Shown here piece by piece: positions 4,820 through 40,014 of a stretch of DNA of 57,987 nucleotides (the stretch's first letter is position 1; each line of letters starts with the position of its first letter). The stretch lies in IMG/VR virus record IMGVR_UViG_3300043411_001582, positions 1-57,987 of that record, one strand, 5' to 3'. A program made the translations under genes and the position numbers. The DNA is from a virus. The notes under the pieces were generated by a model. It was not told the DNA's origin, ran no database searches, and saw nothing but the letters and a program-made list of their open reading frames with translations.

Positions 4820-5365
4820 ATGAAACTAAAAGAATTATTTGAATCTTCAGAAAAATCTATTCTTTCTGAGTATGGTGGACAACCAGAACATAACGTTTTA
4901 GGTTTTGATTGCAGTGATAAAGGCATGACATCTCTTGAGGGTGCGTCAAAATCATATTCATCGGGATTTTATTGTTTTAGCAATCATTTGAAATCTTTAA
5001 AAGGTGCTCCAGAAAAGGTAAATGGTACTTTTGATTGTTGTGATAATCAGATCGATTCTTTAGAATTTGCTCCTTCTTATATTAAAAATGATTTCTACTG
5101 TATAGACAATCAACTTACTAACCTCCATAATATTCATAAGATCATTAAGCACGTTGGTGGTGAAATTCATTTCACCAGCAATCCAATTGTTTCACATGTA
5201 CTTGGTCTCCTTTTGATCGAAGGTGTAACTTATGTTAATCTTGGTGCAAGTGGACCTAAGGGTCTGGTACAAAAAATTATCAACAAGCACTTAGATGAAA
5301 GAGACGTCTTTGCTTGTCAAGAAGAACTGATAGATGCTGGTTTAGAGGAGTTTGCACAATTATGA
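4820..5365 (+). CDS. LRR paralogue 1 with capsid-targeting-like leader
   Basis: The product has 181 aa. The leader MKLKELFE ends in L-F-E, matching the (L/I)xE head-protease site. Three 21-residue LRR units of the type F-x-C-x-x-N-x-L-x-S-L-x-x-A-P follow, then the family capping unit (LTNLHNIHK) and the conserved C-terminal region (SHVLGLLLIEG ... INKHL ... FACQEELIDAG ... FAQL). I place the start at ATG 4820 because it begins the family leader; there is no ribosome binding site, which is unusual. The gene overlaps the next LRR gene by ATGA. Its function is unknown; LRRs usually bind proteins. Confidence 0.85.
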   Translation: MKLKELFESSEKSILSEYGGQPEHNVLGFDCSDKGMTSLEGASKSYSSGFYCFSNHLKSLKGAPEKVNGTFDCCDNQIDSLEFAPSYIKNDFYCIDNQLTNLHNIHKIIKHVGGEIHFTSNPIVSHVLGLLLIEGVTYVNLGASGPKGLVQKIINKHLDERDVFACQEELIDAGLEEFAQL

Positions 5366-5955
5366 AAGTACATGAATTATTTGAAGCAAAAGAAAGAAGC
5401 ATTCTTTCTGTAATGGGCAAGCAACCAGAACACGTTGATGGTGATTTCTATTGTTCTGACAATAAGCTTACTTCTCTAGAAGGTGCTCCATCTTCAGTAG
5501 GTGGCAACTTCTCATGTTCTGACAATAAGCTCAAAAATTTAATAGGCGGACCTAAACGTGTAGATGGTGATTTCTTTTGTGGCCGCAATGAATTAGAATC
5601 ATTAGAAGGATCGCCAGAAACTGTAGGGATAGATTTCTATTGTCAGGCTAACAAGTTAAAGTCGTTAGTTGGTATTACAAAAAAAGTAAAAGATTTATGT
5701 GTTAATGGGAACCAATTGACAAACTTACATAACATTCATAAAATGGTTGATATTGATGGAGCTGCAGATTTTCTTGCAAATCCAATAACATCACATGTTC
5801 TCGGTTTATTGATGATGCCAAAATTAGAAGAGGTTTATCTTGATAATGTTAAAGTTCTTAGGATCATTAACAAGCACATTAAAGGAGACAAAGACATCTT
5901 TGCTTGTCAAGAAGAATTAATCGAGGCTGGTCTAGATGACTATGCACAACTATGA
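5362..5955 (+). CDS. LRR paralogue 2 with capsid-targeting-like leader
   Basis: The 197-aa product begins MKVHELFE and then the family segment ERSILSVMGKQPEH. Four LRR units and the LTNLHNIHK cap follow, with a slightly divergent C-terminal region (LLMMPKLEEVYLDN). The start ATG lies within the stop of paralogue 1 (ATGA) and the stop overlaps the start of the kinase-like gene in the same way, so translation of the three genes is probably coupled. The junction bases around both overlaps are almost identical (CAATTATGAAAGTACATG in one). Confidence 0.88.
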   Translation: MKVHELFEAKERSILSVMGKQPEHVDGDFYCSDNKLTSLEGAPSSVGGNFSCSDNKLKNLIGGPKRVDGDFFCGRNELESLEGSPETVGIDFYCQANKLKSLVGITKKVKDLCVNGNQLTNLHNIHKMVDIDGAADFLANPITSHVLGLLMMPKLEEVYLDNVKVLRIINKHIKGDKDIFACQEELIEAGLDDYAQL

Positions 5956-6518
5956 AAGTACATGAATTATTTGAAGAATCAAAGCCAGATTATTTTAATC
6001 GGCTAGAACAAGAACTAAAAATTAAACGTATTGGTAAAGGTGCTTTTGCCAGAGTCTTTCAGCATCCAACAGAACCTAATATTGCCGTCAAGGTCTTTAC
6101 TGATGAAGATCGTGCATTTAGACACTACTTAAAATTTTGTCAAGCTCATCCTGACAATAAATACTTACCTAAGATTTATAGTGTGGTGAAGCATCGCCAC
6201 AACCCCGCAAAGAAAGACAAAGACTTATCGATAGATGAAATAGTAGATTGGAAATACTCTATTGCCTTTATGGAGAAGTTAAAGCCTGTTACTAAAGAAA
6301 AACTCGTGAAGTTTGTATCAACTTTTGGAATTTATAATAAAGAGTTTGCTGATCTTACTGCAGGTGAATGGAGAATTTTTGCTTATAGGCAAGACGAAGA
6401 TCCAGATCTTGCAGAATTTGCCAAGTACTTGCTTAAAACAAGTTATATGCCAGATCTTCATACACAAAATGTAATGCTACGCGGTAATCAAATTGTTTTC
6501 ATAGACCCTATATCCTAA
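5952..6518 (+). CDS. kinase-like protein with the same leader as the LRR family
   Basis: The first eight residues, MKVHELFE, are identical to the leader of several LRR paralogues, yet the rest is unrelated to them. It looks like a small kinase: a Gly loop GKGAFARV (residues 28-35), AVKVF with the candidate ATP lysine at 47, a catalytic-loop-like PDLHTQNV (Asp168, His170, Asn173), and IDP in place of DFG (Asp185). At 188 aa it is far shorter than a full protein kinase and ends just after the metal-binding Asp. The D-x-H-x-x-N order resembles APH or HipA-like kinases. By analogy with T4 Alt it may be a packaged and injected enzyme; that is inference. It overlaps the preceding gene by ATGA. Confidence 0.65.
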   Translation: MKVHELFEESKPDYFNRLEQELKIKRIGKGAFARVFQHPTEPNIAVKVFTDEDRAFRHYLKFCQAHPDNKYLPKIYSVVKHRHNPAKKDKDLSIDEIVDWKYSIAFMEKLKPVTKEKLVKFVSTFGIYNKEFADLTAGEWRIFAYRQDEDPDLAEFAKYLLKTSYMPDLHTQNVMLRGNQIVFIDPIS

Positions 6519-6519
6519 A

Positions 6520-8385
6520 ATGCCAAACCTTACTACTTGCCCAGATGCAGCAGGTTCATTTAACAATCCAAATGATCCTACAGGCGGAATTACACCACCG
6601 CCTAAAGCTCCATTAAATCCTTACGTTGCACCTGACCTGTGTGTAGGTGATTGGTCACTTACAAATAATACAAGCACCACCGAAGAAAATCTTTATCAAG
6701 AAAGCTTAGCAGCCGAGAATCTGAATATTTCAGGTGCAGAGGTAAATGTGTTCAAGCTTTTAGGTATTCACGAACAAGGCAAATTATTAGATCTGACCGG
6801 TGCTGGTCAGGCTTTAGGCTCTGGTACACCGGCATTAGCCTTTGACGCTTTAGCCAGCGCTTGGGTTTCTACTGAGACAGGTGCAGCAGTTACTCAATCG
6901 GCATATCTTGGATATGACTTTGGTATTAGAAAAACATCTTTCGGCCAGCCTGAAGTTGCACCGGATGCTAATAATACCATGCATATTACTTCTCTTAGAA
7001 TTCAACAGGGAGCTATCGCCACTACGCGCGCTCTTCAAGTTAGAGTAGATCGAAGCAATGGCGGATACAAAATTGATCCATTAAAGATTCAGTTTTCTGG
7101 ATCAGGTACAGGTGGCTTAGGGTCGTTTGTTGCAGGTCCGTCTCCTAAGCCAGGTACCTTTATGGTGACTGCTACATCTTCGACGGTATTCACAGTAATG
7201 TTTACCAGCGCAGCCGGAACCTCTGTTATTGGGATTGCTAATGTTGGGCAGCGATTTAATTCGCCATTAGGTTCATTTACTATTTCTCCTGGTCTTGCAC
7301 CCTTTGCACCTGGTGATATGTTCTCTGCTCCAGTAGAGCTTGAATGGTTTAGAGTTGATGTTGTTAACTTACCAAATGTCCCAACAGCGGCTTTGATCAG
7401 GATTAAACAATCCTCAGCAAGTCGGTATTGGAGATTAGTTCCACTTAGCTTTGCCGGCGTTCTGTCTAATGATTCATGGGTTGTAGAAAAATTAGAGTTA
7501 TTCGACTTCCAACAAACCAGACTTGATGATATTCAGGATACTCTGTATCTTGAGAATCGCGATCGTGACTATGCAAAAGCCTCAATTCATATAAAAGCGG
7601 CATATCAACCTTTTGATGCTACTAGTGATCTTTCTAAATTTGGATTTCAGATCGCCGATATCTTTACCTTTACGGCTAGCTTTGCCACTATAGTTAAAGC
7701 CCTTGGACGTCCAATAGTTGTCGGAGATATTCTAGAGCTTCCAAGTGAAATGCAGTATGATCATAATCTAAGACCAGTTAGAAAGTTCTTAGAAGTGTCT
7801 GATGTAAGCTGGAGTTCTGAAGGGTATACCGCGACATGGAAACCAATTCTTTATAAATTCCAAGCGCAACAATTAATTCCGTCTCAAGAGAATCGTGACA
7901 TTATTGGCACTGCCGATACTCAGAAATACTTGATTGAAGATGGTAAGTTCTTTGAAGGCATTGAGCAAATTCAAACTGCACCGCTAACTGCATCAGAAGC
8001 AAATAAAGCCGATGCTGAAAAAGCCGTTCCAGAAAAAGGAACCAACGTTCGTGAATTAGCTTCTGGCACAAATATTAATGGTGCACCAGGATCATATGAC
8101 GGTCGGCAGTATTTTGTGGAAGATGGACTTCCACCTGATGGAGCACCTTATACTACTGGCTTTAAATTGCCAGATGTTGGAACTGCAACTGACGGTCAGT
8201 TCTTTAGATTAGAGTATGATCCAGCTCTTAATATTGCTGCTAGATTATATAAGTTTAGTGCAATTAAAAACAAGTTTATATTCGTAGAGAGCGACCGTTC
8301 CTCCAAGACTAGTTCTCATAGACCTTCTCAATTAGAAGTCTTAAATAGGACTCAAAACATGTCTCTAACTTCTAAGGTCGTTTAA
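6520..8385 (+). CDS. 14: neck protein gp14-like
   Basis: The product has 621 aa. The part from about residue 350 (KFGFQIADIFTFTAS ... PIVVGDILELPSEM ... WSSEGYTATWKP) follows the pattern of T4 gp14, a neck protein in the head-tail connector. It is more than twice the T4 length. The N-terminal half includes a discoidin-like beta region and, near residues 191-270, a module (TVFTVMFTS ... SFTISPGLAPFAPGDMF) that also occurs twice in the sheath protein. The start lies 1 bp after the kinase-like stop and the stop overlaps the gp15 ATG by 1 bp. Position directly before gp15 supports the call. Confidence 0.72.
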   Translation: MPNLTTCPDAAGSFNNPNDPTGGITPPPKAPLNPYVAPDLCVGDWSLTNNTSTTEENLYQESLAAENLNISGAEVNVFKLLGIHEQGKLLDLTGAGQALGSGTPALAFDALASAWVSTETGAAVTQSAYLGYDFGIRKTSFGQPEVAPDANNTMHITSLRIQQGAIATTRALQVRVDRSNGGYKIDPLKIQFSGSGTGGLGSFVAGPSPKPGTFMVTATSSTVFTVMFTSAAGTSVIGIANVGQRFNSPLGSFTISPGLAPFAPGDMFSAPVELEWFRVDVVNLPNVPTAALIRIKQSSASRYWRLVPLSFAGVLSNDSWVVEKLELFDFQQTRLDDIQDTLYLENRDRDYAKASIHIKAAYQPFDATSDLSKFGFQIADIFTFTASFATIVKALGRPIVVGDILELPSEMQYDHNLRPVRKFLEVSDVSWSSEGYTATWKPILYKFQAQQLIPSQENRDIIGTADTQKYLIEDGKFFEGIEQIQTAPLTASEANKADAEKAVPEKGTNVRELASGTNINGAPGSYDGRQYFVEDGLPPDGAPYTTGFKLPDVGTATDGQFFRLEYDPALNIAARLYKFSAIKNKFIFVESDRSSKTSSHRPSQLEVLNRTQNMSLTSKVV

Positions 8386-9262: not shown

Positions 9263-9301
9263 AGAAAGACACTCAAAATTTGGAGCAAAAACTGCATTTT
9301 C

Positions 9302-9309: not shown

Positions 9310-9357
9310 CTCTTATCATAAACAGTAATAGCCTTTTGCTATTTTAGGAGATTCAAT

Positions 9358-20460: not shown

Positions 20461-20934
20461 ATGAAACTACACGAATTATTTGAAGACCAAGAAAGATCTG
20501 TTCTTTCAGTAATGGGCAAGCAACCAGAACATGTTAATGGCTCCTTCTTTTGTTCTTACAATAAGCTTACTTCTCTGAAAGGCGGCCCATCTTCTGTAGG
20601 TGATGATTTCAATTGTCACGGTAACAATCTGACTTCACTAGAAGGCGCGCCATCTTCGGTAGGTGGTAATTTATCTTGTTTCAACAACAAGCTTACATCT
20701 CTACACAACATCCACAAGCAAATTAAGCACATTGGTGGCTTTGCCACATTTAATGATAATCCGATTACATCTCATGTGCTTGGATTACTTTTGATAGATG
20801 GTTTACAGAAAGTTTTTCTTGATAATATGAAAGTACGTGTCATTATCAATAAACACTTGAAAGGCGATCGAGACATCTTCGCTTGTCAAGAAGAATTGAT
20901 CGAAGCCGATTATGAGGAGTATGCGCAATTATGA
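20461..20934 (+). CDS. LRR paralogue 3 with capsid-targeting-like leader
   Basis: The 157-aa product opens MKLHELFE then ERSVLSVMGKQPEHVNG. Two LRR units precede the LTSLHNIHK cap, followed by the C-terminal region with DNPITSHVLGLLLIDGL, INKHLKGDRDIFACQEELIE and YAQL. It is close to the family consensus and a good reference copy. The start is 2 bp after the endonuclease stop and lacks a clear ribosome binding site. Confidence 0.88.
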   Translation: MKLHELFEDQERSVLSVMGKQPEHVNGSFFCSYNKLTSLKGGPSSVGDDFNCHGNNLTSLEGAPSSVGGNLSCFNNKLTSLHNIHKQIKHIGGFATFNDNPITSHVLGLLLIDGLQKVFLDNMKVRVIINKHLKGDRDIFACQEELIEADYEEYAQL

Positions 20935-21485
20935 AACTACACGAATTATTTGAAACCACTGGCAAAAGCTTTAGAGACGTCTATGGTGATGAACTCGGCG
21001 AAGAACCCGACCAGTATAATGGAAGTCTCAGCTGCAATAAAATGTCTCTTACTTCTTTAGAAGGCTGCCCAAGGAAGATCATGGGCGATTTCTCATGTTT
21101 TAATAATCAGCTAACGTCATTAAAAGGCGGACCCGAATATGTGGATGATATTTTTACATGTACTAATAATGAGATAGAGACTTTAGAAGGATGTCCGTCT
21201 TATCTTGGCAATGATGCTTATTTTAATCACAACAATCTTACGTCACTTCATAATGTCCATAAGCATATAAAAACGTTAAAAGGGTCATTTATTAGTTTTG
21301 CCAACAATCCAATCAAGTCACATGTGCTAGGATTACTTTTGATCGATGGGTTATATGGAGTAATTCTTGATAACGATGAAGTTAGTGAAATTATTGATAA
21401 GCATTTAGCACCAGACATGCGTGATGTCTTTGCTTGTCAAGAAGAATTGATTGAAGCGGGATATGAGGAGTTTGCACAGCTCTGA
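20931..21485 (+). CDS. LRR paralogue 4 with capsid-targeting-like leader
   Basis: The 184-aa product has the leader MKLHELFE but a divergent linker (TTGKSFRDVYGDELGEEPDQ) instead of the usual ERSVLSVMG segment. Three LRR units are present; the first lacks the Asn (LSCNKMSLTSL). The cap is LTSLHNVHK. The C-terminal region is typical (DMRDVFACQEELIEAGYEEF). ATG overlaps the previous stop. Confidence 0.86.
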   Translation: MKLHELFETTGKSFRDVYGDELGEEPDQYNGSLSCNKMSLTSLEGCPRKIMGDFSCFNNQLTSLKGGPEYVDDIFTCTNNEIETLEGCPSYLGNDAYFNHNNLTSLHNVHKHIKTLKGSFISFANNPIKSHVLGLLLIDGLYGVILDNDEVSEIIDKHLAPDMRDVFACQEELIEAGYEEFAQL

Positions 21486-23465: not shown

Positions 23466-23896
23466 AAAAAATGGTTAATCCACTAGATACCTTCTTCGAT
23501 ACTCCGCCTATCGATATAGAAGACAATGCAATTGTGACTACTGAAGGTGCTCTTGCCAATATTCAAGGTACCGAAGCTCCTCCTGAAAAGGATGCTGAAG
23601 ACGTTCAGATTGATAGTAAAATTGATGAAGTATATGATGCAGCTATGCAAGCGTATAATACTCAAACTCAATTTGCTAAAATTCTAGAACCAAGATATGC
23701 GGCACGAAACGGTGAGGTCGCAGCTAACTTTCTAAACATCGCTCTGAATGCTGCCTCGGTTCGTGCTAAAGTCAAAGGCGATCGTAAGAAGAATGCCCAA
23801 TTTATTCCATTCACTAATAACAAAGCCAGCGGAACCGTAGTAGCTTCTAGAGAAGATATTATGAAGATGCTAGCTATCGATGCTGATACAAAATGA
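23462..23896 (+). CDS. 16: probable small terminase gp16-like
   Basis: The 144-aa protein has the layout of T4 gp16: a variable acidic N terminus, a central pair of long helices (IDEVYDAAMQAYNTQTQFAKIL ... EVAANFLNIALNAASVRAKV) and a C-terminal strand-helix region (GTVVASREDIMKMLAI). The small terminase recognises DNA and stimulates gp17. Position between gp4 and the leader-bearing block is not that of T4, and the family is weakly conserved, so this is tentative. ATGA overlaps on both sides. Confidence 0.5.
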   Translation: MKKMVNPLDTFFDTPPIDIEDNAIVTTEGALANIQGTEAPPEKDAEDVQIDSKIDEVYDAAMQAYNTQTQFAKILEPRYAARNGEVAANFLNIALNAASVRAKVKGDRKKNAQFIPFTNNKASGTVVASREDIMKMLAIDADTK

Positions 23897-25026
23897 TTAC
23901 TTTCAAACAATTCCTTACTGAAGAATTCCTGATAGAAGCTTCCTCAGGCGAAGCAAAATGGGATAAGTATTTTGGCAATGTAGATGTTGAAACCATTGCT
24001 AAGAATGATTCTAAGCTTTATGATGTCTTTGGGAATTTGGTAGACAAAGAAATAAAGAAAGGCGATACACTTACCGTTCTTGCTGCTGATTACGATACTA
24101 AGCCTAGAATTAGAATCGGCAAGGGCGAGTATAGGATGAAGTTTGCTGACATCGACAAACCATTCAAAATCAATCTTGCTGTTCGTGGTAATTTAAAACC
24201 AGATGTCTTAAAGATCACCGGCAAAATTAAATTGTCAGATTTAAACAAACGGATTAAGAAAGCTATTGATGCTGATTCAGGAATTCCTGATGCGCAAGGA
24301 GAATATCTAAAAGCTTTAGTTGATCTTGCCGAAGATATGGATGATAAAGATTTTGCTGATACAGTAAAAGAATTATTCGAATCCGCCGGAGTAAAGGAAG
24401 ATAAGGCACTTCAAAATACTATCAACAATGATTTTATGGAATGTCTTGGACCATTCTTTGTAGCCGATGAAATGTCTGAATATAAAAATTCAGATGTATT
24501 ATTTCCGACTTCTGGAAGTGAACCGCTATATGACTTCGAAATGATTATTAAAGATCCAACTCAGTTCTCGTCTAAGCGAAGTGGCGGACATTCTAATACT
24601 CTGAAGGCAGCTCAAGTGTTTACTGCTGCATCTAAAGACTCTAAGCTTAAAAAGAAATATTCTAAAGAGCTAGAGCTTCTTAAAATCATCACCGAAAATA
24701 CTGTTCGTAATGCACCTGGTCTAATCAATACCTGGCTTGCTGAAAACTTTAGGGATTATAAAATTGCTCCAGCACCTACAGACAATACTACTATTGCCAG
24801 ACTAGAGGCAGCAGTTGTAAAGTTTATCACCTTACATTCTAAGTTGAATTTTGTACCATTAGTTAAAGAAGCAATTCCGGATCTTTGGTACGTCAAGTCT
24901 AAATTAAAGGCGGATGGGACTATTAAAGTAGAACCTTTAAAGAATGGACGAGACATTGATAAGACAGAATTGAGAAGTAAATCTTCTCCGGGCCATCTGG
25001 CTGATAAGCTTGGATTTGTGGTCTAA
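23893..25026 (+). CDS. leader-bearing putative head-packaged protein, nuclease-like motif
   Basis: The 377-aa protein opens MITFKQFLTE, close to the T4 internal-protein leader (MKTYQEFIAE as I recall it), with L-T-E and a second site L-I-E at the expected place. The remainder is charged and soluble. Residues about 207-235 (GSEPLYDFEMIIKDP-x-x-FSSKRSGGHSNTLK) resemble the D...(S/E)xK core of PD-(D/E)XK nucleases; this is only a pattern match. I do not recognise a named family. It is coupled to gp16-like by ATGA and starts a run of similar leader-bearing genes. Confidence 0.6.
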   Translation: MITFKQFLTEEFLIEASSGEAKWDKYFGNVDVETIAKNDSKLYDVFGNLVDKEIKKGDTLTVLAADYDTKPRIRIGKGEYRMKFADIDKPFKINLAVRGNLKPDVLKITGKIKLSDLNKRIKKAIDADSGIPDAQGEYLKALVDLAEDMDDKDFADTVKELFESAGVKEDKALQNTINNDFMECLGPFFVADEMSEYKNSDVLFPTSGSEPLYDFEMIIKDPTQFSSKRSGGHSNTLKAAQVFTAASKDSKLKKKYSKELELLKIITENTVRNAPGLINTWLAENFRDYKIAPAPTDNTTIARLEAAVVKFITLHSKLNFVPLVKEAIPDLWYVKSKLKADGTIKVEPLKNGRDIDKTELRSKSSPGHLADKLGFVV

Positions 25027-25040
25027 AGACTTCTTTTTCC

Positions 25041-25048
25041 AATAAATA
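25041..25048 (+). promoter_or_regulatory. late promoter AATAAATA
   Basis: The late-type element lies 28 bp before the gene at 25076. Confidence 0.45.
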
Positions 25049-25075
25049 AAGAACACATCCATTTGAAAGATTACT

Positions 25076-26629
25076 ATGAGCATTCTGAAAGAATTATCAC
25101 AAATCATTAACCCTATTACCGAAGGTGTTGATAAACCTACTTGCTGTAAAGTCGGAGATACCGTCTGGGCTAAAGATCCTTTTAACAAAGCAAAAACTGT
25201 TACTGGCAAAGTTAAGCGCGTCGGACGGACCTCTTATACACTAACCTTGAAAGATGGATCAGAAGAAACTTATCCGCACAAAGATGTAAGCGCCGATTAC
25301 GATATAGTGAATCCAAAAACCAAACGCAAGATTGATGAGGTGTCGACCGCAGCACTTGGAAGATACAAGAAAAAAGCCGGAGAAGATGCCAGTTCCAAAG
25401 ATAAAGAAGCCGATATTGCTTTTAAGGACGGTGATCTTGAGACTGGAAAGAAACTGACTAAGAAGGCAGACAAAAGGTTTTCTGGTATTGTTAAAGCTAC
25501 TAAAAAACAATTTGACAATGACAAATCATTAGAAGAACAATTGCTTGAAAATGCCGAACTTCACAAGTTAGGCAAACAATTAAAAGGGGATAAGGAAGAA
25601 GGTGCCACTGGCGACGTAGAGGCTGAAGAATCTAAACCAGCACCGTATGGTGTCGAAATTGGACAAGTCTACGTACCAGCCGATGGATCTACAGGAGAAC
25701 TTACTGTAGTCGGATTGGACATTGAAAAGGACGATGCAATAGTTCAGGATTCTGATACGGGCGAAGAACGCAATATTGATTTGTTTAAGCTAGCCAAAGT
25801 TCGTTATAAACTTAAAGACGAACAGGCACCATCTGAAGAAGAACCTGTTTCTGATGAATCAACCGCTGAAGTACCTTCAGAAGAGTCTGAATCAACAGAA
25901 GCTGATCCAAAAGCTTTTGACATCGGTGACATCGTTATTCCGAATGCAGGCAATCATAAAGGCGAACGTCATGAAATCACAAAGATTAAAAGCGACGGAC
26001 GTTTAGTAATCAAACCAAAAGACCTAGAAGGTGAAGCTGTAAAATACCGTAATGGTGCAATTATCGCTAAACCAGAAGATGTGGTTCTGGCTGAATCTTA
26101 TAAGGACGCATTCAAAGGTTTTAAGTTATTTGACAAGAACGCAACTTTGATGTCGCAGGTAAATGTTCCACTTAATGAAGCGGATAAGAAAGCCGAATGG
26201 GAAGCCGAAATTAAAAAGGTTCATCCAGATTTAGTAGGCAAGATGAAGTTTAAGAATCGTATCGAACAAGGCAAAGATACTACCTCTGCTGAAATCGGTG
26301 ATCGTTCCTATGGAGTCTTTGATAACGATACTAATAAAGGTAAAGTTTTCAAGTTGAATGAAAGTGTCAAATCTGTAAAAGACTCTAATAGGTTTATTTC
26401 TAGACTTACTGCTAAATTGAAACCACTTGGATTTGAATATGACCGAGATAGTTGGGTTGATTCAAATAAAAACTTCGTCAAAATGGCCATTGATATGGAT
26501 GAAAAAGATGGTTGGATTACTTGGTCTGCCGGCAAAAAAGCTAAAGTTATTTTTAGAGGAAGTGTAGGCTTTGATAAGGCACAAGACGTATTAGACAAAA
26601 TTATAGCATTTGCTAATAGTGCAAAATGA
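25076..26629 (+). CDS. multi-domain protein with KOW-like modules, putative head-packaged
   Basis: The 517-aa protein starts MSILKELSQIINPITEG, containing an I-T-E site compatible with head-protease cleavage. Three SH3/KOW-like modules follow: KVGDTVWAKDPF (about 28-65), IGQVYVPADGSTGELTVVGL (about 192-235) and IGDIVIPNAGNHKGERHEI (about 283-330). Between the first two is a basic helical segment (AALGRYKKKAGEDAS ... KADKRFSGIVKATKKQF) that I associate with other phage structural proteins. The linkers are acidic. A DNA- or core-binding internal head protein is a reasonable guess. Confidence 0.6.
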   Translation: MSILKELSQIINPITEGVDKPTCCKVGDTVWAKDPFNKAKTVTGKVKRVGRTSYTLTLKDGSEETYPHKDVSADYDIVNPKTKRKIDEVSTAALGRYKKKAGEDASSKDKEADIAFKDGDLETGKKLTKKADKRFSGIVKATKKQFDNDKSLEEQLLENAELHKLGKQLKGDKEEGATGDVEAEESKPAPYGVEIGQVYVPADGSTGELTVVGLDIEKDDAIVQDSDTGEERNIDLFKLAKVRYKLKDEQAPSEEEPVSDESTAEVPSEESESTEADPKAFDIGDIVIPNAGNHKGERHEITKIKSDGRLVIKPKDLEGEAVKYRNGAIIAKPEDVVLAESYKDAFKGFKLFDKNATLMSQVNVPLNEADKKAEWEAEIKKVHPDLVGKMKFKNRIEQGKDTTSAEIGDRSYGVFDNDTNKGKVFKLNESVKSVKDSNRFISRLTAKLKPLGFEYDRDSWVDSNKNFVKMAIDMDEKDGWITWSAGKKAKVIFRGSVGFDKAQDVLDKIIAFANSAK

Positions 26630-27192
26630 TTACGTTTAAACAATTTCTGTTAGAAATTACGGCCTCCACTAAAGATGGCCATAAAATTACTACTTACTTT
26701 GAAACTGCACAGGGATCAAAATATGTTTTGTCAGAAAAAGGTGAAAGCAAACGAATCAAATCATTACACGACAACACCGGCCCTGATGATGTAGGCCTTA
26801 AAGATTGGATGCAACATTGTGTGTTTGCCGATCCAAAGGATGAAAAGTCGGCTAATGCATTTCAATTTTTAATGAATTATCATGATAACATTTTAATTTC
26901 GGCTAAAAATGGTAAGATTACTTTTATGGTTGTCGATAATAAACAATGGCGAAATGCTACATTTGGGGATGCTTATCCTAAAGCAGCAAAAGAACCTGAA
27001 CATAGCGATAAAAAAGATAATATCCTTTCATTTACCTACGTCAAAGATCCAAAAATGGGTTATCTTTGTGTAGAGTTTGATGTCAGAACAAACCAAACTG
27101 TTTCTAGTTATCATTGCGGTAGCCCAGTATCAAAGATTAAAAAACTTTCTGATATGTCTGAAACAGAGTTAAGAGCATTTCAAACAAAATAA
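26626..27192 (+). CDS. leader-bearing putative head-packaged protein
   Basis: The 188-aa product opens MITFKQFLLEI: the first eight residues are identical to those of the protein at 23893, and the site is L-L-E. The remaining sequence is unrelated to that protein (KITTYFETAQGSKYVL ... NGKITFMVVDNKQW) and unrecognised. ATGA overlap with the preceding gene. Confidence 0.65.
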   Translation: MITFKQFLLEITASTKDGHKITTYFETAQGSKYVLSEKGESKRIKSLHDNTGPDDVGLKDWMQHCVFADPKDEKSANAFQFLMNYHDNILISAKNGKITFMVVDNKQWRNATFGDAYPKAAKEPEHSDKKDNILSFTYVKDPKMGYLCVEFDVRTNQTVSSYHCGSPVSKIKKLSDMSETELRAFQTK

Positions 27193-27196
27193 TATG

Positions 27197-27541
27197 ATGA
27201 CCTTTAAACAATTCCTGTTAGAAGCTGTTAAAGGCGATGAAGGCCATTATCCTGAAGATACTTCAGAACGAGCTATGATTCATCGAATCATTCAGTTGAA
27301 TAATCTTGGTGGCAAAACCAAAGAGAACTATGATACGGCATATTCTTTTTTAGAGTCTGACTGGGGTGGTCAACTCTGGGACAAATACTACGAATTGTTC
27401 CATGAGAAGAATCCTAATTTTGAAGGACCAGCCAATATCCGAAGATTTTCTAAGTTCAAGAATGATTGTGTTGCTTGGTTCAACCACTGGAAGAACAATC
27501 GAACATTCAAGGGAACAACTCTAAGTAAACTAGACAACTAA
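27197..27541 (+). CDS. leader-bearing putative head-packaged protein
   Basis: The 114-aa product opens MTFKQFLLEA (an extra ATG at 27194 would add one Met). The site L-L-E then A is very like the T4 internal-protein site. The body is aromatic-rich (SDWGGQLWDKYYELFHEKN) with no family I recognise. It starts within a few bases of the preceding stop. Confidence 0.62.
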   Translation: MTFKQFLLEAVKGDEGHYPEDTSERAMIHRIIQLNNLGGKTKENYDTAYSFLESDWGGQLWDKYYELFHEKNPNFEGPANIRRFSKFKNDCVAWFNHWKNNRTFKGTTLSKLDN

Positions 27542-28303: not shown

Positions 28304-28906
28304 ATGACAACACAACATTTAAAAACCATGCTTCAAGACATCATTAACGATCGTCCTGAACAAGCACAAGCCGCAATGCACGAGTACTTTATTGCTAAGT
28401 CACGTGAGTTGACGGAAGGTAGTTCATCAATGATTAACGAATCATCAGGAGGATCAATTCTTACGGTCTTAGGTAAGCAACCTGAAATATATAATAAATC
28501 ATTTAATTGTTCTGGAAAAAAGCTTACTTCATTAAAAGGGGCTCCAAAGGAAGTAGGCGGCGATTTTGATTGTACCGATAACGAACTTACTTCGCTAGAA
28601 GGAGCACCATCTTCTATTGCACACACTTTTAGATGTGCCGGTAATAATATTGATAATCTTTACAATATTCATAAGATTATTAAACATATTGGCGGTGATG
28701 CTGATTTTAGAAATAATCCAATTAACTCGCACATACTCGGATTATTTCATATAGGCGGGCTTGAAAGAGTATGGCTTAATCACAAAGGTGTTCAAGAAAT
28801 TGTTAATAAGTGTTTAGCTTTAAAGCCTGGTTCAGAGGTGGATAAGATTGATCGTTGTAGGGGTGAATTGATTGCCCATAACCTTGATGACTTTGCCAAG
28901 CTGTAA
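28304..28906 (+). CDS. LRR paralogue 5 with a different, longer leader
   Basis: The 200-aa product replaces the short leader by about 50 residues (MTTQHLKTMLQDIINDRPEQ ... SRELTEGSS) containing an L-T-E site; this helical segment resembles N termini of phage head/scaffold proteins. The family sequence then resumes at SILTVLGKQPE with two LRR units and the cap IDNLYNIHK. The C terminus is degraded (CRGELIAHNLDDFAKL instead of CQEELIE). The start has a TTAAGGAA ribosome binding site. Confidence 0.82.
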   Translation: MTTQHLKTMLQDIINDRPEQAQAAMHEYFIAKSRELTEGSSSMINESSGGSILTVLGKQPEIYNKSFNCSGKKLTSLKGAPKEVGGDFDCTDNELTSLEGAPSSIAHTFRCAGNNIDNLYNIHKIIKHIGGDADFRNNPINSHILGLFHIGGLERVWLNHKGVQEIVNKCLALKPGSEVDKIDRCRGELIAHNLDDFAKL

Positions 28907-29005: not shown

Positions 29006-29446
29006 ATGATTGAAATAGATGGCTCATGTTATGAAACCTACATTAGGATAGATCAAGATCATCCAACATTAGCTTCTGCTTGTAGATTAATTCCAAATCA
29101 TGTTAAGATAAATTATGACTTGATTATTAGAGACAATAATCTATCGTCTCTAAAAGGTATTTCTCCAAGAGTTGGACATAATCTTTGGGCGGCAAGAAAC
29201 AATCTCACTTCACTTCATAACATACATAAACACTTAAAATATGTTGGGATTTCAATTGGATTTAAACACAATCCTATCAAATCGCATGTTCTCGGATTAC
29301 TTTTGATAGACGGTCTTCAAAAAATCTTCTTAGATAATAAAGAAGTAGAAGACATTATCAATAAACATCTGAAGAACGGTAGAGACATCTTCGCTTGCCA
29401 AGAAGAATTAATTGAATCAGGTTTTGAAGATTTTGCTCAGTTGTAG
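29006..29446 (+). CDS. LRR paralogue 6, leaderless
   Basis: The 146-aa product lacks the MKVHELFE-type leader and the ERSVLSVMG segment; it opens MIEIDGSCYETYIRID. Only one full LRR unit (LIIRDNNLSSLKG) and the cap LTSLHNIHK remain, but the C-terminal region is intact (SHVLGLLLIDGLQ ... NGRDIFACQEELIESG ... FAQL). There is no ribosome binding site; the ATG lies in a repeated ATCATGAT. It may be a decaying copy. Confidence 0.72.
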   Translation: MIEIDGSCYETYIRIDQDHPTLASACRLIPNHVKINYDLIIRDNNLSSLKGISPRVGHNLWAARNNLTSLHNIHKHLKYVGISIGFKHNPIKSHVLGLLLIDGLQKIFLDNKEVEDIINKHLKNGRDIFACQEELIESGFEDFAQL

Positions 29447-32204: not shown

Positions 32205-32816
32205 ATGAAAGTATCTGATTTATTTGAAGCCGAAGAAAAAAGCATCTTGTCTGTAATGGGCAAACAAGAAGATCAGGTCGCTGGTGACTTTTCTTGTTAC
32301 AACAATAATCTTACGTCTCTAGAAGGCTCGCCAAAAGAAGTAGGTGGCATTTTCTTTTGTTCCTACAATAATCTTACGTCTCTAGAAGGCTCGCCAAAAG
32401 AAGTAGGTGGCAACTTTTCTTGTTACCACAATAAGCTTACGTCTCTAGAAGGCTCGCCAAAAGAAGTAGGTGGCAACTTTGACTGTTCCTACAATAATCT
32501 TACGTCTCTAGAAGGCTCGCCAAAAGAAGTAGGTGGCAACTTTGACTGTTCCTGCAATAAGCTTACGTCTCTTCGTAATATTCATAAGCATGTAAAGAAG
32601 ATGATTGGTGAAGCCAATTTTGAAGATAATAATATTAAGTCTTGTGTTCTTGGATTACTTTTAATAGATGGATTAACAGTAGTACTTCTTAAAAATAAGA
32701 AAGTACAGAAGATTATCAATAAACACTTGAAAGGTGATCGTAAAGGTGATCGAGACATCTTTGCTTGTCAAGAAGAATTAATTGAACATGGATATGATGA
32801 GTTTGCAAAACTATAG
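32205..32816 (+). CDS. LRR paralogue 7 with recently expanded repeats
   Basis: The 203-aa product has the leader MKVSDLFE and ERSVLSVMG-like segment (EKSILSVMGKQEDQV). Four 21-residue LRR units are nearly identical in protein and DNA (LTSLEGSPKEVGG in each), then the cap LTSLRNIHK. The C terminus has an extra seven-residue duplication (GDRKGDRDIFACQEELIEHG). It starts 3 bp after the MoxR stop. Confidence 0.88.
   Translation: MKVSDLFEAEEKSILSVMGKQEDQVAGDFSCYNNNLTSLEGSPKEVGGIFFCSYNNLTSLEGSPKEVGGNFSCYHNKLTSLEGSPKEVGGNFDCSYNNLTSLEGSPKEVGGNFDCSCNKLTSLRNIHKHVKKMIGEANFEDNNIKSCVLGLLLIDGLTVVLLKNKKVQKIINKHLKGDRKGDRDIFACQEELIEHGYDEFAKL
32311..32562 (+). repeat. four tandem 63-bp LRR-coding repeats
   Basis: The repeat starts TTACGTCTCTAGAAGGCTCG at 32311, 32374, 32437 and 32500, exactly 63 bp apart; the next partial copy begins at 32563 and diverges after TTACGTCTCT. 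The first about 38 bp are identical in all four, including silent positions, which points to recent duplication. Confidence 0.95.
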
Positions 32817-32826
32817 GATTTTATAA

Positions 32827-34572
32827 ATGGCTAATCTCGCCTCAAAAATTAAAGCCGATATCGGCGTAGTCAAATTTCTAAAGTCTGCTTGGACCGACAA
32901 AAATATTTCTGACTCTCTTGATCTTATTGCAAAAGAACAAAAGGTTACTGTTCAAGATGTAAAAGATAAAATTCAGAAAAAGATTGATGAATTTCAAGAC
33001 ATCGCAAAATATTCTAAAATGCTTTATGAAACTATTGCATTGAATATTATCGAGTCTGAAATCTTCAATATGCTTACTGACCTTACTCATAAGGCCGAAG
33101 AAGAACAGAAATTTGATCCAGCCACATTTATGGCGTTGATTCGTGCTGTCAAGGCAGAGCATGCTCGATTTTTTCCGCTTCGCAATTTTTCTGATTCTAA
33201 GCATCTACACAATCCTCGCTGGATTCTTGTGCCGAGTGATAAAGAAGAAAACAAAAAATACAACAGCATCACTACTGCTGCTGCAACTCCAAAAGGCGAG
33301 TTTATTTTCTGTGTACCTTTCATGCAGAAACTTTTAGACTATGCACGAATTAAAGGTCTACAACCAAAGAGTAAAAAGTATTCTAATAACGGTGGTCCAT
33401 TTCCACCAGGCTATGCGTATATTGAATTTCTGATCATTCATGAATTGCTTCACTATACTCAGTCGGACTTTCATTACGGAAAGATCTACAAAGAAGTAAG
33501 TCCACAACTCCTTAATTGGGTCGGCGACTTCAGGTCTAATTACGAATTAGTAAAGGGTGGATACGAACAACTCCCAATCGGACTTTATAGCGATCATATC
33601 AACTATGATCGTCAGAACACCTATAAAGAAATGATCGATATTGTCAAAGCCGAGATGGATAAGCTTCCTAAGAAGGAACAGGACAAAGTCAAGCAACAGA
33701 TGGATGAGATGACCGATGAACACGGCGAAGGCGAAGAGGAAGAAGGCGAAGGTCCTGACATGGAAGGCAAGGAAGGCGAGGTCGATAAAGCTGGAAAAGC
33801 TACCAGCAAAGCCATGGGCGAAAAGAAAGATTCTAAAGGTGAAGGTGAAGGCGAAGGTGGTGATAAACCTTCTGACAAAAAAGGTTCTCAACCTGGCAAA
33901 GGTAATGTTACTACAACTTCTAAGTTTGATCCTTCATCTATTAAGCCAAGATATTCTTGGCGCGATCTGATTTCTAAGGCTGTTAAGAGCTCTGCCGAAA
34001 CCGAAGAAACTTACATGAAGCCGAATCGTCGTGGCATTACCGGTGCAGTACTTGCACACACCCGTGGTTCAGCAGCTGTAAAGCCTGGTGATATTGAGAC
34101 TCAAGTCAATGTCAAGCTATTAGTTATTGTCGATTCGTCTGGATCAATGGGAAGTGAACTTGGCAAGGTCTATGCTAATATTAAAAATCTTTTGAGCAAT
34201 CGCGAAGTTGGACACACGTTCTTGTTGACTAGATTCTCTGATGTATTTGATGAATGGGCATGTAATGTCAAGACTGATAAGGCTGTTAATACTGAAGATA
34301 AAAAAGTAGATAAAGTCTCTCATGTCTTTACCACCACCTACGGTGGTGGAACACAATTACAAGCTGATATGGTAGAACAAGCCAGACAACGTATGTCTAA
34401 AGGATATAATGTACTATTCTTTAGTGATACCGATGTATTGGCCTCTTCAAACTTCACTCAATTGAAAGCTCTGCTTGACATGAAAGCTTTTGTAATCTTT
34501 GATAGCAAAGCCACATTTGAACAAGCCGTTGGAAAATTAAAATCAGTTCCATTTGGTATGTCACACTTATGA
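32827..34572 (+). CDS. VWA-domain protein with metallopeptidase-like N-terminal domain
   Basis: The 581-aa protein has a zinc-peptidase-like HELLH near residues 205-209 followed by NWVGDFRSNYELV, a long acidic/basic low-complexity stretch near 296-358 (Glu-Gly runs), and a C-terminal VWA domain with the MIDAS motif DSSGSMG near 435-441, plus TTYGGGTQ. This is the DUF2201-type layout (putative metallopeptidase plus VWA-like), usually paired with MoxR ATPases. The pairing with the ATPase at 29685 fits. It overlaps the following LRR gene by ATGA. Confidence 0.83.
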   Translation: MANLASKIKADIGVVKFLKSAWTDKNISDSLDLIAKEQKVTVQDVKDKIQKKIDEFQDIAKYSKMLYETIALNIIESEIFNMLTDLTHKAEEEQKFDPATFMALIRAVKAEHARFFPLRNFSDSKHLHNPRWILVPSDKEENKKYNSITTAAATPKGEFIFCVPFMQKLLDYARIKGLQPKSKKYSNNGGPFPPGYAYIEFLIIHELLHYTQSDFHYGKIYKEVSPQLLNWVGDFRSNYELVKGGYEQLPIGLYSDHINYDRQNTYKEMIDIVKAEMDKLPKKEQDKVKQQMDEMTDEHGEGEEEEGEGPDMEGKEGEVDKAGKATSKAMGEKKDSKGEGEGEGGDKPSDKKGSQPGKGNVTTTSKFDPSSIKPRYSWRDLISKAVKSSAETEETYMKPNRRGITGAVLAHTRGSAAVKPGDIETQVNVKLLVIVDSSGSMGSELGKVYANIKNLLSNREVGHTFLLTRFSDVFDEWACNVKTDKAVNTEDKKVDKVSHVFTTTYGGGTQLQADMVEQARQRMSKGYNVLFFSDTDVLASSNFTQLKALLDMKAFVIFDSKATFEQAVGKLKSVPFGMSHL

Positions 34573-35105
34573 AAGTATCTGAATTATTTGAAGAGACAGA
34601 AAGATCAGTGACGTCTGTGATGGGACAGCAACCAGAACATATAGCACGTGATTTCTTTTGTAGTTACAACAAGCTTACTTCTCTGAAAGGTGCTCCAATA
34701 TCTATAGACGGAAATTTCAATTGCAGTAATAATAATCTCACATCATTAAAAGGTGGACCTACCTCTGTTAGTGGTTATTACTATTGTTATGAAAATAGCT
34801 TAACTTCTTTAGAAGGGTTACCTTCTTCAATGGACAGTTTATCCATTTCATGTAATAAGATTACGTCACTTCACAACATCCATAAGATTATTAAACGAAT
34901 AAACGGGGCTGCAAATTTTAGTAATAATCCAATTAAGTCACATCTATTAGGTTTACTTCTAATAGATGGGTTAACTAAAATTTGGTTTGATGATAACTGG
35001 CCATTAGTTAGAATTATTAACAAGCACTTACAAGGCGAACGAGACATCTTTGCTTGTCAAGAAGAGCTAATTGAGAATGGCTTTGAGGTCTTTGCGCAAT
35101 TATGA
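34569..35105 (+). CDS. LRR paralogue 8 with capsid-targeting-like leader
   Basis: The 178-aa product has the leader MKVSELFE, then ERSVTSVMGQQPEH. Three LRR units (FFCSYNKLTSL, FNCSNNNLTSL, YYCYENSLTSL) precede a cap with altered spacing (LSISCNKITSLHNIHK). The C-terminal region is typical. It is coupled by ATGA to the VWA gene upstream and to the YkgJ-like gene downstream. Confidence 0.88.
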   Translation: MKVSELFEETERSVTSVMGQQPEHIARDFFCSYNKLTSLKGAPISIDGNFNCSNNNLTSLKGGPTSVSGYYYCYENSLTSLEGLPSSMDSLSISCNKITSLHNIHKIIKRINGAANFSNNPIKSHLLGLLLIDGLTKIWFDDNWPLVRIINKHLQGERDIFACQEELIENGFEVFAQL

Positions 35106-35480: not shown

Positions 35481-35489
35481 GGAACTATT

Positions 35490-36575: not shown

Positions 36576-38095
36576 TGAAAAATGAACAGATTAAGAGAGC
36601 TTATGCAGAGGATGAATATACCCCATTCATGATAAGTGAACTTCGCAAATGTAAAAAAGATCCTATTTACTTTATGCGAAACTACATAAAGATTCAACAT
36701 CCAACAAGAGGAACAATACCTTTTGAGATGTTTGAATTTCAAGAACGATATGTTAGGAGTTTACACGAGAATAGATTTGTGGCGTGTTTAATGCCCAGGC
36801 AGTGCGGCAAGACTGTTACAACGGCTATGTATCTTTTGTGGTTTGCCTCTTTTAATCAGGACTCTACAATTCTTATTGCTTCAAAAAATCAAAGTCATGC
36901 TTTAGAAATTGCAGCAAGAATTAGATTTGCCTATGAAGAACTTCCAAACTGGATTAAACCAGGAATGAAGTATTATAACCGGCATAATCTAGAGATGGAC
37001 AATAAATCAAGGATTATTTCTGAAGCTACAACTGCAAAAACAGGTCGAGGCACATCACTCACTAAGCTATACCTTGACGAGCTCGGATTTGTAGACAAAA
37101 GGATTCAGGATGAGATGTGGAGTTCTTTAGCACCTACGCTTTCTACTGGTGGTTCTGCTATTATTTCTTCAACCCCAAATGGTGATACTGATCTTTTTGC
37201 TTCTCTTTGGCGCGGTGCTATGTCAGGAACAAATGGCTTTGTGCCATTTCAAGTACATTGGAGAGAACACCCAGAACGATCTGATGCCTATTGGGATGAA
37301 ATGGTCGGTCAATTAGGAGAATTGAAGTGTCGGCAAGAAGTAGGAACAGAATTTTTATCTTCCGACGCCCTCCTCATCAACTCGATGAAGCTGCAGCAGC
37401 TTAAGTACTCACGTCCTTCATTCGAAGACATGGGCTTCAAGTTCTGGGCCGATCCTAATACTCTAGGTGGTCAAGGCAAAACTTATCTTGTCTCTTTAGA
37501 TCCCGCTACAGGCAATGGTAAAGACTTTTCAGTAATTCAAATCTTTGACTTTCCAAAGCTTACACAGATTGCCGAATGGCGAAGTAATGAGATTAATATT
37601 CCGTTGCTATATGCTAAATTGAAATGGGTCCTTAATAAGCTTACTATGCCTGTAGGTCGTGGTCGAGCCGAAGTATTATGGACCTTCGAGCGTAATGGTA
37701 TTGGTGAAGCCATGAGTGCATTGTATGTAAATGATGAGAAGCCACCAGAATTTGCAGAACTATATAATGATGCACCTGGCAAATACGGTGTATATACTTC
37801 TGGCAAATCGAAAATTTTGTCTTGCTTACAATTGAAGACGTTAATCGAGAAGGTTAATAATGGCTTCACGATTAATTCTGAGATATTGTTATTTGAATTG
37901 AAGAATTTTGTTGCGAAGGGCGGAAGCTATGAAGCAAAATCTGGTTGTACTGATGACTGTGTCATGGCGACTGTTGGGATCACGAGGTTGATTAAACGAT
38001 TAGCAGAGTATAATGATGAAGCGTTTAAACGAGTAAACGAATACGTCGAGGCGAATGATCCGAGTGACGATGAGCCATTAGGAATGGTTTTTTGA
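36575..38095 (+). CDS. 17: large terminase gp17-like
   Basis: The 506-aa protein is the packaging ATPase-nuclease. Walker A MPRQCGKT is near residues 72-79, Walker B LYLDELGF near 165, the coupling motif SSTPNG near 200, and the nuclease domain begins with SLDPATGNGKD near 306, with TFERNGIGEA and a C-terminal GCTDDCVMA. I start at ATG 36575 rather than the in-frame ATG at 36542, because it overlaps the stop of the upstream gene (TAATG) and matches the usual start. No intron or intein interrupts it. A late promoter overlaps its stop codon. Confidence 0.95.
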   Translation: MKNEQIKRAYAEDEYTPFMISELRKCKKDPIYFMRNYIKIQHPTRGTIPFEMFEFQERYVRSLHENRFVACLMPRQCGKTVTTAMYLLWFASFNQDSTILIASKNQSHALEIAARIRFAYEELPNWIKPGMKYYNRHNLEMDNKSRIISEATTAKTGRGTSLTKLYLDELGFVDKRIQDEMWSSLAPTLSTGGSAIISSTPNGDTDLFASLWRGAMSGTNGFVPFQVHWREHPERSDAYWDEMVGQLGELKCRQEVGTEFLSSDALLINSMKLQQLKYSRPSFEDMGFKFWADPNTLGGQGKTYLVSLDPATGNGKDFSVIQIFDFPKLTQIAEWRSNEINIPLLYAKLKWVLNKLTMPVGRGRAEVLWTFERNGIGEAMSALYVNDEKPPEFAELYNDAPGKYGVYTSGKSKILSCLQLKTLIEKVNNGFTINSEILLFELKNFVAKGGSYEAKSGCTDDCVMATVGITRLIKRLAEYNDEAFKRVNEYVEANDPSDDEPLGMVF

Positions 38096-38101
38096 TAAAT
38101 A
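38094..38101 (+). promoter_or_regulatory. late promoter GATAAATA
   Basis: The element overlaps the terminase TGA and lies 20 bp before the first gene of the four-gene LRR array. Confidence 0.58.
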
Positions 38102-38120
38102 GATGTTTTAATGGTAGCCT

Positions 38121-38594
38121 ATGAAAGTAAGTGAATTATTTGAAGACGAAGAAAGAAGTGTCTTATCTGTAATGGGACAGCGGCCAGAACACTGTTATGG
38201 TAATTTTCGTTGTTCAGATAAAGATATTGAATCGTTAAAAGGGGCACCTAAATCAGTGTCTCACTCAGTATTTTGTTCTAGAAATAAATTTTCTTCGTTG
38301 GATGGTGTACCTTCTGAAATAGGCGATAACTTATATTTTGAGTACAACAATTTGACCACACTTCATAATATTCATAAGTACATTAAAAAGATTGGGAATG
38401 TTGCTGATTTCAGATGGAATCCCATCACCTCGCATGTACTTGGGCTACTTCTAATAGATGGTCTGAAGGTATGTTTTCTTGACAATACGAAAGTAGAAGT
38501 CATTATCAATAAGCATCTGAAAGGCGAACGAGATGTCTTCGCATGTCAAGAAGAATTAATTGAAAATGGATTTGAGGACTTTGCGCAATTATGA
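38121..38594 (+). CDS. LRR paralogue 9 with capsid-targeting-like leader
   Basis: The 157-aa product opens MKVSELFE, then ERSVLSVMGQRPEH. Two divergent LRR units (FRCSDKDIESL, VFCSRNKFSSL) precede the cap LTTLHNIHK. The family motif DFRWNPITSHVLGLLLIDGL is intact. This is the first gene of the tandem array behind terminase, joined to the next by ATGA. Confidence 0.87.
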   Translation: MKVSELFEDEERSVLSVMGQRPEHCYGNFRCSDKDIESLKGAPKSVSHSVFCSRNKFSSLDGVPSEIGDNLYFEYNNLTTLHNIHKYIKKIGNVADFRWNPITSHVLGLLLIDGLKVCFLDNTKVEVIINKHLKGERDVFACQEELIENGFEDFAQL

Positions 38595-39061
38595 AATTAC
38601 AAGAATTATTTGAAGAAGAAAGAAGTGTTCTTTCGGTCTGTGGTCGATTTCCAAGGGTGTTTACCGGAATATTTGTTGCCAACAATATAGAGCTGACATC
38701 TTTGAAAGGATCTCCTGAAGAGATAATAGGCGACTTTGATTGTAGTGCTAATTATCTGACTTCATTAGAAGGTGCTCCATCTTCAATAGGCGGTAATTTC
38801 GTATGTGATTATAATGCTATTACTTCATTACATAATATCCATAAGCAAATTAAATATATTGGAGGATATGCAAATTTCGAATATAATCCAATTAAGTCAC
38901 ATGTACTTGGATTACTTCTAATAAAAGGATTAAAGTATGTTTATCTAACCAACGGAAAAGTGGCAGACATTATTGATAAGCATCTATCTGGTGATCGAGA
39001 TGTCTTCGCTTGTCAAGAAGAATTGATTGAAGCTGGTTTTGAGGACTATGCACAATTATGA
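38591..39061 (+). CDS. LRR paralogue 10 with capsid-targeting-like leader
   Basis: The 156-aa product opens MKLQELFE and has a changed segment SVCGRFPRVFTG in place of SVMGKQPEHV. The first LRR unit lacks the Cys (FVANNIELTSL); the second is standard. The cap is ITSLHNIHK. The C terminus is typical (FACQEELIEAGFEDYAQL). ATGA overlaps on both sides. Confidence 0.87.
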   Translation: MKLQELFEEERSVLSVCGRFPRVFTGIFVANNIELTSLKGSPEEIIGDFDCSANYLTSLEGAPSSIGGNFVCDYNAITSLHNIHKQIKYIGGYANFEYNPIKSHVLGLLLIKGLKYVYLTNGKVADIIDKHLSGDRDVFACQEELIEAGFEDYAQL

Positions 39062-39531
39062 AGGTGCACGAATTATTTGAAGCTGAAGAAAGAAGTGTTC
39101 TTTCGGTAATGGGAAAGCAAAAAGAACATTACATTGGTGAATACTCTTGTTCTAGGCGTTTTCTAACCTCATTAAAAGGTGCACCAACATCAATAGACGG
39201 TAAATTCTATTGTATGGATAATAAGATTACTTCCCTAGAAGGTGCACCGTCTTCAATAGAAGGTAATTTCTATTGTACAAAAAACAAGCTTACTTCTTTA
39301 CACAATATCCACAAGCACATTAAACATATTCGAGCCTTTGCGGGTTTTGGCAATAACCCGATTACTTCCCATGTCCTTGGTCTACTTCTAATAGATGGTC
39401 TTAAGGGAGTTTATCTTGATAATAACGAAGTAACAGACATTATATGTAAGCACTTACAAGGCGATCGAGATGTATTTGCCTGTCAAGAAGAATTGATTAA
39501 TGCTGGATATGAGGACTTTGCTCAATTATGA
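39058..39531 (+). CDS. LRR paralogue 11 with capsid-targeting-like leader
   Basis: The 157-aa product opens MKVHELFE, then ERSVLSVMGKQKEH. Two LRR units (YSCSRRFLTSL, FYCMDNKITSL) precede the cap LTSLHNIHK. The conserved INKHL is here ICKHL. ATGA overlaps on both sides. Confidence 0.88.
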   Translation: MKVHELFEAEERSVLSVMGKQKEHYIGEYSCSRRFLTSLKGAPTSIDGKFYCMDNKITSLEGAPSSIEGNFYCTKNKLTSLHNIHKHIKHIRAFAGFGNNPITSHVLGLLLIDGLKGVYLDNNEVTDIICKHLQGDRDVFACQEELINAGYEDFAQL

Positions 39532-40014
39532 AAGTACACGAATTATTCGAACAAGAAGAAAGATCTGTTCTTTCTGTAATGGGCAAGCAACCAGAACTAA
39601 AAACTTCATCTTTCTTTTGTAATAACAAAGCCCTAACCTCTTTAAATGGATCACCTTCTACAGTCGCGGGTGATTTTGAATGTTTTAACAATGAGCTCAC
39701 TTCATTAGAAGGTATTGCATCTCATATAAGTGGTAACCTAACATGTTATAATAACGCATATCTTACATCTTTACATAACATCCATAAACAAATTAAACAT
39801 ATCGGACGAGAGGCTAATTTTTTGGAATTGTCCAATTACTTCACATGTGCTTGGATTACTTCTGATTGATGGACTTAAGGCAGCTTTTTTCTCTCAAGGG
39901 TGGAATGACGAGCTTCAAACAATTATTAACAAACACTTAGCCGGCGAACGTGACGTCTTTGCTTGTCAAGAAGAATTAATCGAAAATGGTCTAGAGGACT
40001 TTGCTCAATTGTAA
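39528..40014 (+). pseudogene. LRR paralogue 12, frameshifted
   Basis: The frame opens MKVHELFEQEERSVLSVMGK and runs through two LRR units and a cap (AYLTSLHNIHK). It then leaves frame at a run of six T (39818-39823) and stops at 39869. Removing one T restores NFWNCPITSHVLGLLLIDGL and the complete family C terminus, ending in FAQL at the TAA of 40012-40014. The downstream half has no disabling changes, so this is a recent mutation, a programmed slip or a homopolymer sequencing error. Confidence 0.85.

Follow-up and report, generated by a model that had tools for sequence, protein, structure and literature searches.

We analysed a stretch of viral DNA of 57,987 nucleotides (positions 1 to 57,987 of IMG/VR record IMGVR_UViG_3300043411_001582; hereafter the window), in which 11 open reading frames (ORFs), all on the plus strand, begin with the same short leader, MK[VL]x[ED]LFE. 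Ten of these are leucine-rich repeat (LRR)-like genes and one encodes a T7 gp0.7-like kinase. We conclude that this leader, in its wider form MK[VLI]x[ED]L[FL](x)E, is very probably a capsid-targeting sequence (CTS) of a jumbo phage of the T4 superfamily, and that it copies the N-terminus of phrog_13986, a conserved prohead-cluster protein. Proteins bearing the leader would bind the assembling scaffold core and become enclosed in the prohead, where a gp21-type protease would free the cargo by cutting after the L/I-x-E at the leader end. The freed cargo would remain among the packaged DNA, enter the next host with it, and there act on host defences or host transcription. We infer each of these steps, from core binding, packaging and cleavage after LFE to injection and action of the cargo on the host, from gene sequences.

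The source phage is a jumbo member of the T4 superfamily. Its T4-type gene set in the window comprises the tail sheath, tail tube, a gp15-like sheath stabiliser, head closure protein, terminase large subunit, ssDNA-binding protein and UvsX. Judged by the sheath, its closest isolates are the jumbo phages (319-385 kb) CM1 and RAS14 of Stenotrophomonas and XacN1 of Xanthomonas. A set of related contigs (numbered L and G) was used for comparison, including G003, a 336-kb relative, and the sister contigs L002, L003 and G005 (from IMG/VR, one metagenome), which share the LRR family with the window. Only distant phages among the collection isolates carry this family, and a short-peptide search of the window's own genome with a query of 16 amino acids gave no match, which is uninformative.

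The leader and the proteins that carry it

The genes that begin with the leader in the window are as follows.

4820..5365, plus strand, LRR-like gene, MKLKELFE (ORF start and DNA pattern match)
5362..5955, plus strand, LRR-like gene, MKVHELFE, ATGA overlap with the next gene (ORF start)
5952..6518, plus strand, T7 gp0.7-like kinase, MKVHELFE (phrog_15752, E=2e-15)
20461..20934, plus strand, LRR-like gene, MKLHELFE (ORF start)
20931..21485, plus strand, LRR-like gene, MKLHELFE (ORF start)
32205..32816, plus strand, LRR-like gene, MKVSDLFE (ORF start)
34569..35105, plus strand, LRR-like gene, MKVSELFE (ORF start)
38121..38594, plus strand, LRR-like gene, MKVSELFE (ORF start)
38591..39061, plus strand, LRR-like gene, MKLQELFE (ORF start)
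39058..39531, plus strand, LRR-like gene, MKVHELFE (ORF start)
39528..39869, plus strand, LRR-like gene, MKVHELFE, frameshifted (C-terminal module in the other frame to about 40014)

LFE closes the leader in all 11 cases. A degenerate DNA pattern for the leader, with up to two mismatches allowed, gave 11 matches in the window against a mean of 0.28 in shuffled sequence, and none of 100 shuffles reached 11. A sequence-only reading that preceded this analysis had stated that LRR genes here begin MKVHELFE or similar and that an unrelated kinase-like protein at 5952 does so too, and both statements proved correct. Among nine LRR paralogues, identity averaged 81% over the first eight residues and 58% over the remainder. 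The term LRR-like denotes a visible repeat pattern and not a Pfam assignment; all Pfam LRR models fell under their cut-offs on the window genes (LRR_4, 16.8 bits against a cut-off of 27).

We then looked at the bodies that follow the leader in other phages. At least 13 of 515 N-termini in G003 carried it, compared with none of 1482 internal methionines searched with the same expression; the bodies were mutually unrelated, and G003 has the leader in spite of having no LRR genes. An unrelated protein of 171 amino acids in L001 begins with exactly MKVHELFEAKE, and 5 of the 33 nucleotides encoding it differ; between phages, the amino acids of the leader are retained while the codons change. A scan of 2.9 million IMG/VR viral contigs for codons of MK[VLI]xELFE found at least 118 stretches. 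Among the matches listed, 112 of 115 ORFs of at least 50 amino acids had the leader at their start, and 31 of the 115 leader loci held at least two leader starts, as against none of 100 loci in the control. Start leaders were distributed over at least 63 unrelated body families, compared with 15 in a permuted control in which two codons were swapped (100 stretches, 63 of them at starts, 35 of these 63 in one family). The cargo included LRR-like proteins (L139, L103), ADP-ribosyltransferase-like proteins and many proteins of unknown family, and one leader protein of G003 scored above the ART-PolyVal cut-off. These data show a leader that is modular and moves between unrelated bodies, whether LRR-like, gp0.7-like kinase, ADP-ribosyltransferase-like or other. 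A basic leader protein of 58 amino acids (MKIKELFETASSMGAGDVATFIKGG...) recurs in L104 (887-1060) and at seven more IMG/VR loci; it had no match among isolates and is a candidate small internal protein.

The kinase gene was considered separately. A profile match of its product to phrog_15752 (the T7 gp0.7 family; E=2.1e-15) covers residues 13-188, and since it begins at residue 13, the leader is additional to the kinase body. The homologue in G003 (23675-24292; E=3e-35, 37% identical) starts with MKVSELFE, and that in Rhizobium phage RHph_I1_18 starts with MKSFSEHIAE and adjoins a protein with MISFKSHLNE. Two distinct head-type leaders on kinase homologues across phages are hard to explain other than by selection for delivery. 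If the leader on the kinase is indeed of the head type, the kinase would be delivered at time zero.

Other leader dialects were also seen. Three window genes share a second type, M[IM]TFKQFL[TL]E:

23893..25026, plus strand, unknown protein, MITFKQFLTE (ORF start)
26626..27192, plus strand, unknown protein, MITFKQFLLE (ORF start)
27194..27541, plus strand, unknown protein, MMTFKQFLLE (G003 homologue at 24993-26144 with ...FLKSLAE at the same place)

In RHph_I1_18, M[IKQ][ST]FKxHLxE precedes several bodies, the kinase homologue among them. The sequence-only reading gave the T4 leaders, of about ten residues, as MKTYQEFIAE (internal proteins) and MELITELFDE (Alt). By eye, and with the T4 letters as given there, the second type resembles the leader of the T4 internal proteins, and MKxxELFE gives no clear alignment. 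In Agrobacterium phage Atu_ph07, M[KR]WxQL[TN]E opens a tandem family with YRGM motifs, encoded by coding sequences (CDS) 53-62 (numbering verified by the major capsid protein, CDS 215). The leader genes CDS 43 and 53-63 are located within the cluster CDS 31-76, for which 29 proteins were detected in virions by mass spectrometry (MS), a figure given at cluster level (PMC6102473). Leader genes were more frequent in the three published virion clusters of this phage (14/148) than elsewhere (27/677; p=0.008), as counted with a loose regular expression (28/2032 in an internal methionine control) and with tandem paralogues that are not independent.

The LRR genes themselves show a distinctive arrangement. 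Their conserved tail, ...EEFAQL, is encoded via GAGGAG and closes in ATGA, and so supplies a ribosome site and a start for the next gene. Seen in EEFAQL and EDFAQL forms at 5362-5955, 20461-20934 and 38121-39531, this GAGGA-type site with ATGA overlap amounts to a self-stacking cassette; the arrangement helps tandem insertion, and leaders may be copied that way. Endonuclease genes lie among the LRR cassettes in the structural region, namely an HNH endonuclease (phrog_1314; window 32827-34572) and a GIY-YIG-like gene (L003 1724-2680). Three members of the LRR family in the window (28304, 29006 and 46559) lack the leader; the first is described below, and the other two are:

29006..29446, plus strand, LRR-family gene without leader
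46559..46984, plus strand, LRR-family gene without leader

Upstream of the gene at 46559, a frame within 46484-46600 gives KTKIEWIFE with no ATG, which may be what is left of a leader.

Head gene cluster and prohead protease

The leader also opens phrog_13986, whose gene immediately follows that of the portal in RaK2-like and related jumbo phages. The start of this small protein takes the forms MKLVELFE, MLNELFE, MLDEIFE, MKLTELF and MKIHELFE. The last is found in L100 (MKIHELFEP), in which the gene order is portal, phrog_13986, acidic core protein and gp21. Starts in named phages are as follows.

Vibrio phage 2.275.O, MKLVELFEA
Munch, MLNELFES
CBB, MLDEIFEA
Atu_ph07, MKLTELFNPLTE

A second, longer link to the head was found on the LRR gene at 28304-28906:

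28304..28417, plus strand, N-terminal module of 38 residues from a prohead core protein, closing in LTE, on an LRR body (DNA near-identical to L002 and L003)

In L002 (5162-5725) and L003 (3905-4153) the module stands on other bodies. The DNA identity runs to codon 38, which encodes the E of LTE, an L/I-x-E site, and the sequences beyond are divergent. The module matched the N-termini of gp21-adjacent prohead core proteins of several phages with a score reached by none of 2000 shuffles, and one such core protein, CBB_254, was detected by MS in virions (PMC5259590). In L143, the genes lined up between gp21 and gp22 differ in body and carry MKINELFTE, MKINELFEK or a longer leader that closes in LITE. 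The small genes at L143 1110-4137 have in common the long leader MKxEKSMKELFEIAGIKDIDxALSLITE, again on different bodies; the IAGI within it is similar to LAGI, a motif at the C-terminus of gp22 in related contigs.

The protease expected to cut the leader is present in the lineage. The sequence-only reading had suggested a search outside the window for a gp21 homologue and for (L/I)xE sites in capsid genes, and both were found. L003 encodes gp21 (phrog_207, E=8e-56) in the order portal, LRR gene (MKVKELFEEE), GIY-YIG-like homing endonuclease, gp21, LRR gene (MKTSRILELAGLPNHQAKLLE) and core-module gene, and gp21 relatives are also present in G003, G001, G002, G004 and L011. Ahead of the conserved body, the major capsid proteins read ...AKYLTE/TAGATSV in G003, ...RRNLTE/TATAGST in G002 and ...NIMLAE/TASAG in XacN1 (slash, expected cut). 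T4 gp21 cleaves after L/I-X-E (PMC9026906). Glutamate at positions 8-10 was retained in 25 of 30 non-LRR leaders, compared with a background of 18%, and position 5 tolerates D (8 of 51 leaders), which makes a cut after LFE or LLxE likely; the leader is probably cut after LFE. A cut at position 5 by analogy with ITE-6 of Alt is disfavoured by the D at that position and by V at position 3 in 20 of 51. The conserved ELIEAG tail was also considered as a gp21 site at the C-terminus; this is unsupported, with E replaced by D or N in 2 of 9 full-length copies. The proposal of a head-targeting leader is strongly supported by comparison as regards a leader separable from its body (the 63 or more families against 15) and linked to the head through phrog_13986, gp21 and LxE. 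Its use of LFDE in Alt as a parallel for the cut site was wrong: Alt is processed at ITE-6 (PMC5694885), and likeness to its ELFDE is therefore not an argument for a cut after LFE.

Alternative explanations and weight of evidence

The shared start could reflect common descent of the LRR genes, the kinase having acquired its leader when it recombined with its neighbour at the conserved ATGA junction. The first 25 nucleotides of the kinase gene at 5952 and the adjacent LRR gene at 5362 are identical, and the tandem copies have common junctions, so that local copying at the junction may be a route by which the leader spreads. However, G003 has no LRR genes and carries the leader on many bodies, the kinase homologue included, and together with the IMG/VR families this rules out LRR homology as the sole cause, as the sequence-only reading had argued. 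We give this explanation scarcely any credence. A leader that acts in the infected cell, as a translation-friendly start, an address for a membrane or compartment, or a dimerising helix, is very unlikely. Short amphipathic starts are common and the leader DNA is AT-rich, but it is the amino acids and not the codons that are retained between phages, the diversity of bodies is absent from the permuted control, and one protein of the portal-to-protease cluster starts with the leader as well.

It is likewise unlikely, if less so, that the leader directs proteins to the head or to some other part of the virion and stays on as an uncleaved docking peptide. Some leaders lack E at positions 8-10, and several MS-detected proteins of CBB have a common start, MLPFPRLxEYGN, on Laminin-G/Kelch bodies that are probably surface parts. 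Against this stand the E retained in most non-LRR leaders, the second leader type and the core module, which likewise end LxE, and the presence of gp21 in the lineage. The MLPFPRLxEYGN proteins of CBB (KU574722; 173132-173866 and 344368-353952), several of them in the virion MS list, possibly carry a surface anchor, a different kind of start.

Several observations weigh against a capsid-targeting leader. The presence of leader proteins in virions is deduced here from genes. CBB_253, the leader-bearing phrog_13986 protein, is absent from the published MS list that includes its neighbour CBB_254 (PMC5259590); the MKxxELFE dialect was not found in CBB beyond CBB_253. The virion-found chitinase of XacN1 has no leader. 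About one-sixth of leaders lack E at positions 8-10 (MKLNELLSTKKF, MKLYELVGVKKF) and would be uncut or are not leaders. The permuted control likewise gave 63 start-like matches, so that leader and control differ in the diversity of bodies rather than in the number of matches. Peptidase_S77 (the gp21 family) was found in 9 of 30 leader contigs and in none of the 30 controls, a contrast that weakens when contigs of at least 50 kb only are compared (8/24 against 0/10, p=0.07). No gp20-gp24 cluster was seen in the window, the record being a fragment, and the protease is known via the sister contigs. T4-type late promoters (TATAAATA) were not enriched in the window (7 against 4.8 expected), a result that is uninformative.

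With capsid targeting as the preferred reading, we lean somewhat towards a broader proposal, that each lineage of jumbo phages in the T4 superfamily has its own 'head address', taken from core-cluster N-termini, either short and phrog_13986-like or 38 residues long and acidic-core-like, behind which any gene could be placed. The dialect of the portal-protease region would then list the injected effectors of a phage, and the cargo here would be a fast-diversifying LRR-like arsenal and a kinase delivered ahead of all phage gene expression. Injected phage proteins act ahead of the host defence response and are hard to pick among the hundreds of unfamiliar genes of large phages. A sequence-readable leader would give a list of effectors, in which kinases and LRR-like and ADP-ribosyltransferase-like proteins would stand beside dozens of families of unknown function. 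It would also provide a testable tag by which proteins could be addressed to the heads of jumbo phages. In our searches of open-access literature we found no description of the MKxxELFE dialect, of the link to phrog_13986, or of the leader on LRR-like proteins or kinases.

Comparison with known systems

Leaders that define internal proteins are already known in T-even phages; the dialect here is different, and the set of cargo much wider. In the IPIII leader of T4, replacement of the site glutamate by aspartate is reported to leave packaging intact and to prevent the cut. In T4, ten residues suffice for targeting and are removed by gp21, and the internal proteins enter the host by injection and act against its defences (PMC9026906, PMC9391042, PMC12373910); the leader is the sole common part of T-even internal proteins (PMC12373910). 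The leader described here is similar to the CTS of T4 IPI-III in being short, N-terminal, placed on unrelated proteins and ended by a gp21 L/I-x-E, in a lineage with a gp20-gp21-gp22-gp23 cluster. The window's MITFKQFLLE and MKSFSEHIAE of the Rhizobium phage look similar to the T4 leader, whereas MKxxELFE, known here from genes, is another dialect, mostly of eight residues and common to phrog_13986, with a cargo that includes LRR-like arrays and kinases.

T4 Alt is also a packaged effector with a short N-terminal propeptide, and related phages have leader-bearing ADP-ribosyltransferase-like proteins; Alt, however, is cut at ITE-6 and at its C-terminus, and LFDE is not its cut site (PMC5694885). 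The head propeptides of phiKZ and SPN3US are likewise targeting propeptides removed by a prohead protease, but they are mostly far longer and have A/S/G-x-E sites, with no confirmed counterpart of the T4 scaffold gp22 (PMC5694885). The body of the 5952 protein falls in the same family as the T7 gp0.7 kinase. Unlike the homologues examined in 121Q and Munch, which have no leader, the kinase homologues of the window phage and two other phages carry leaders of the head type.

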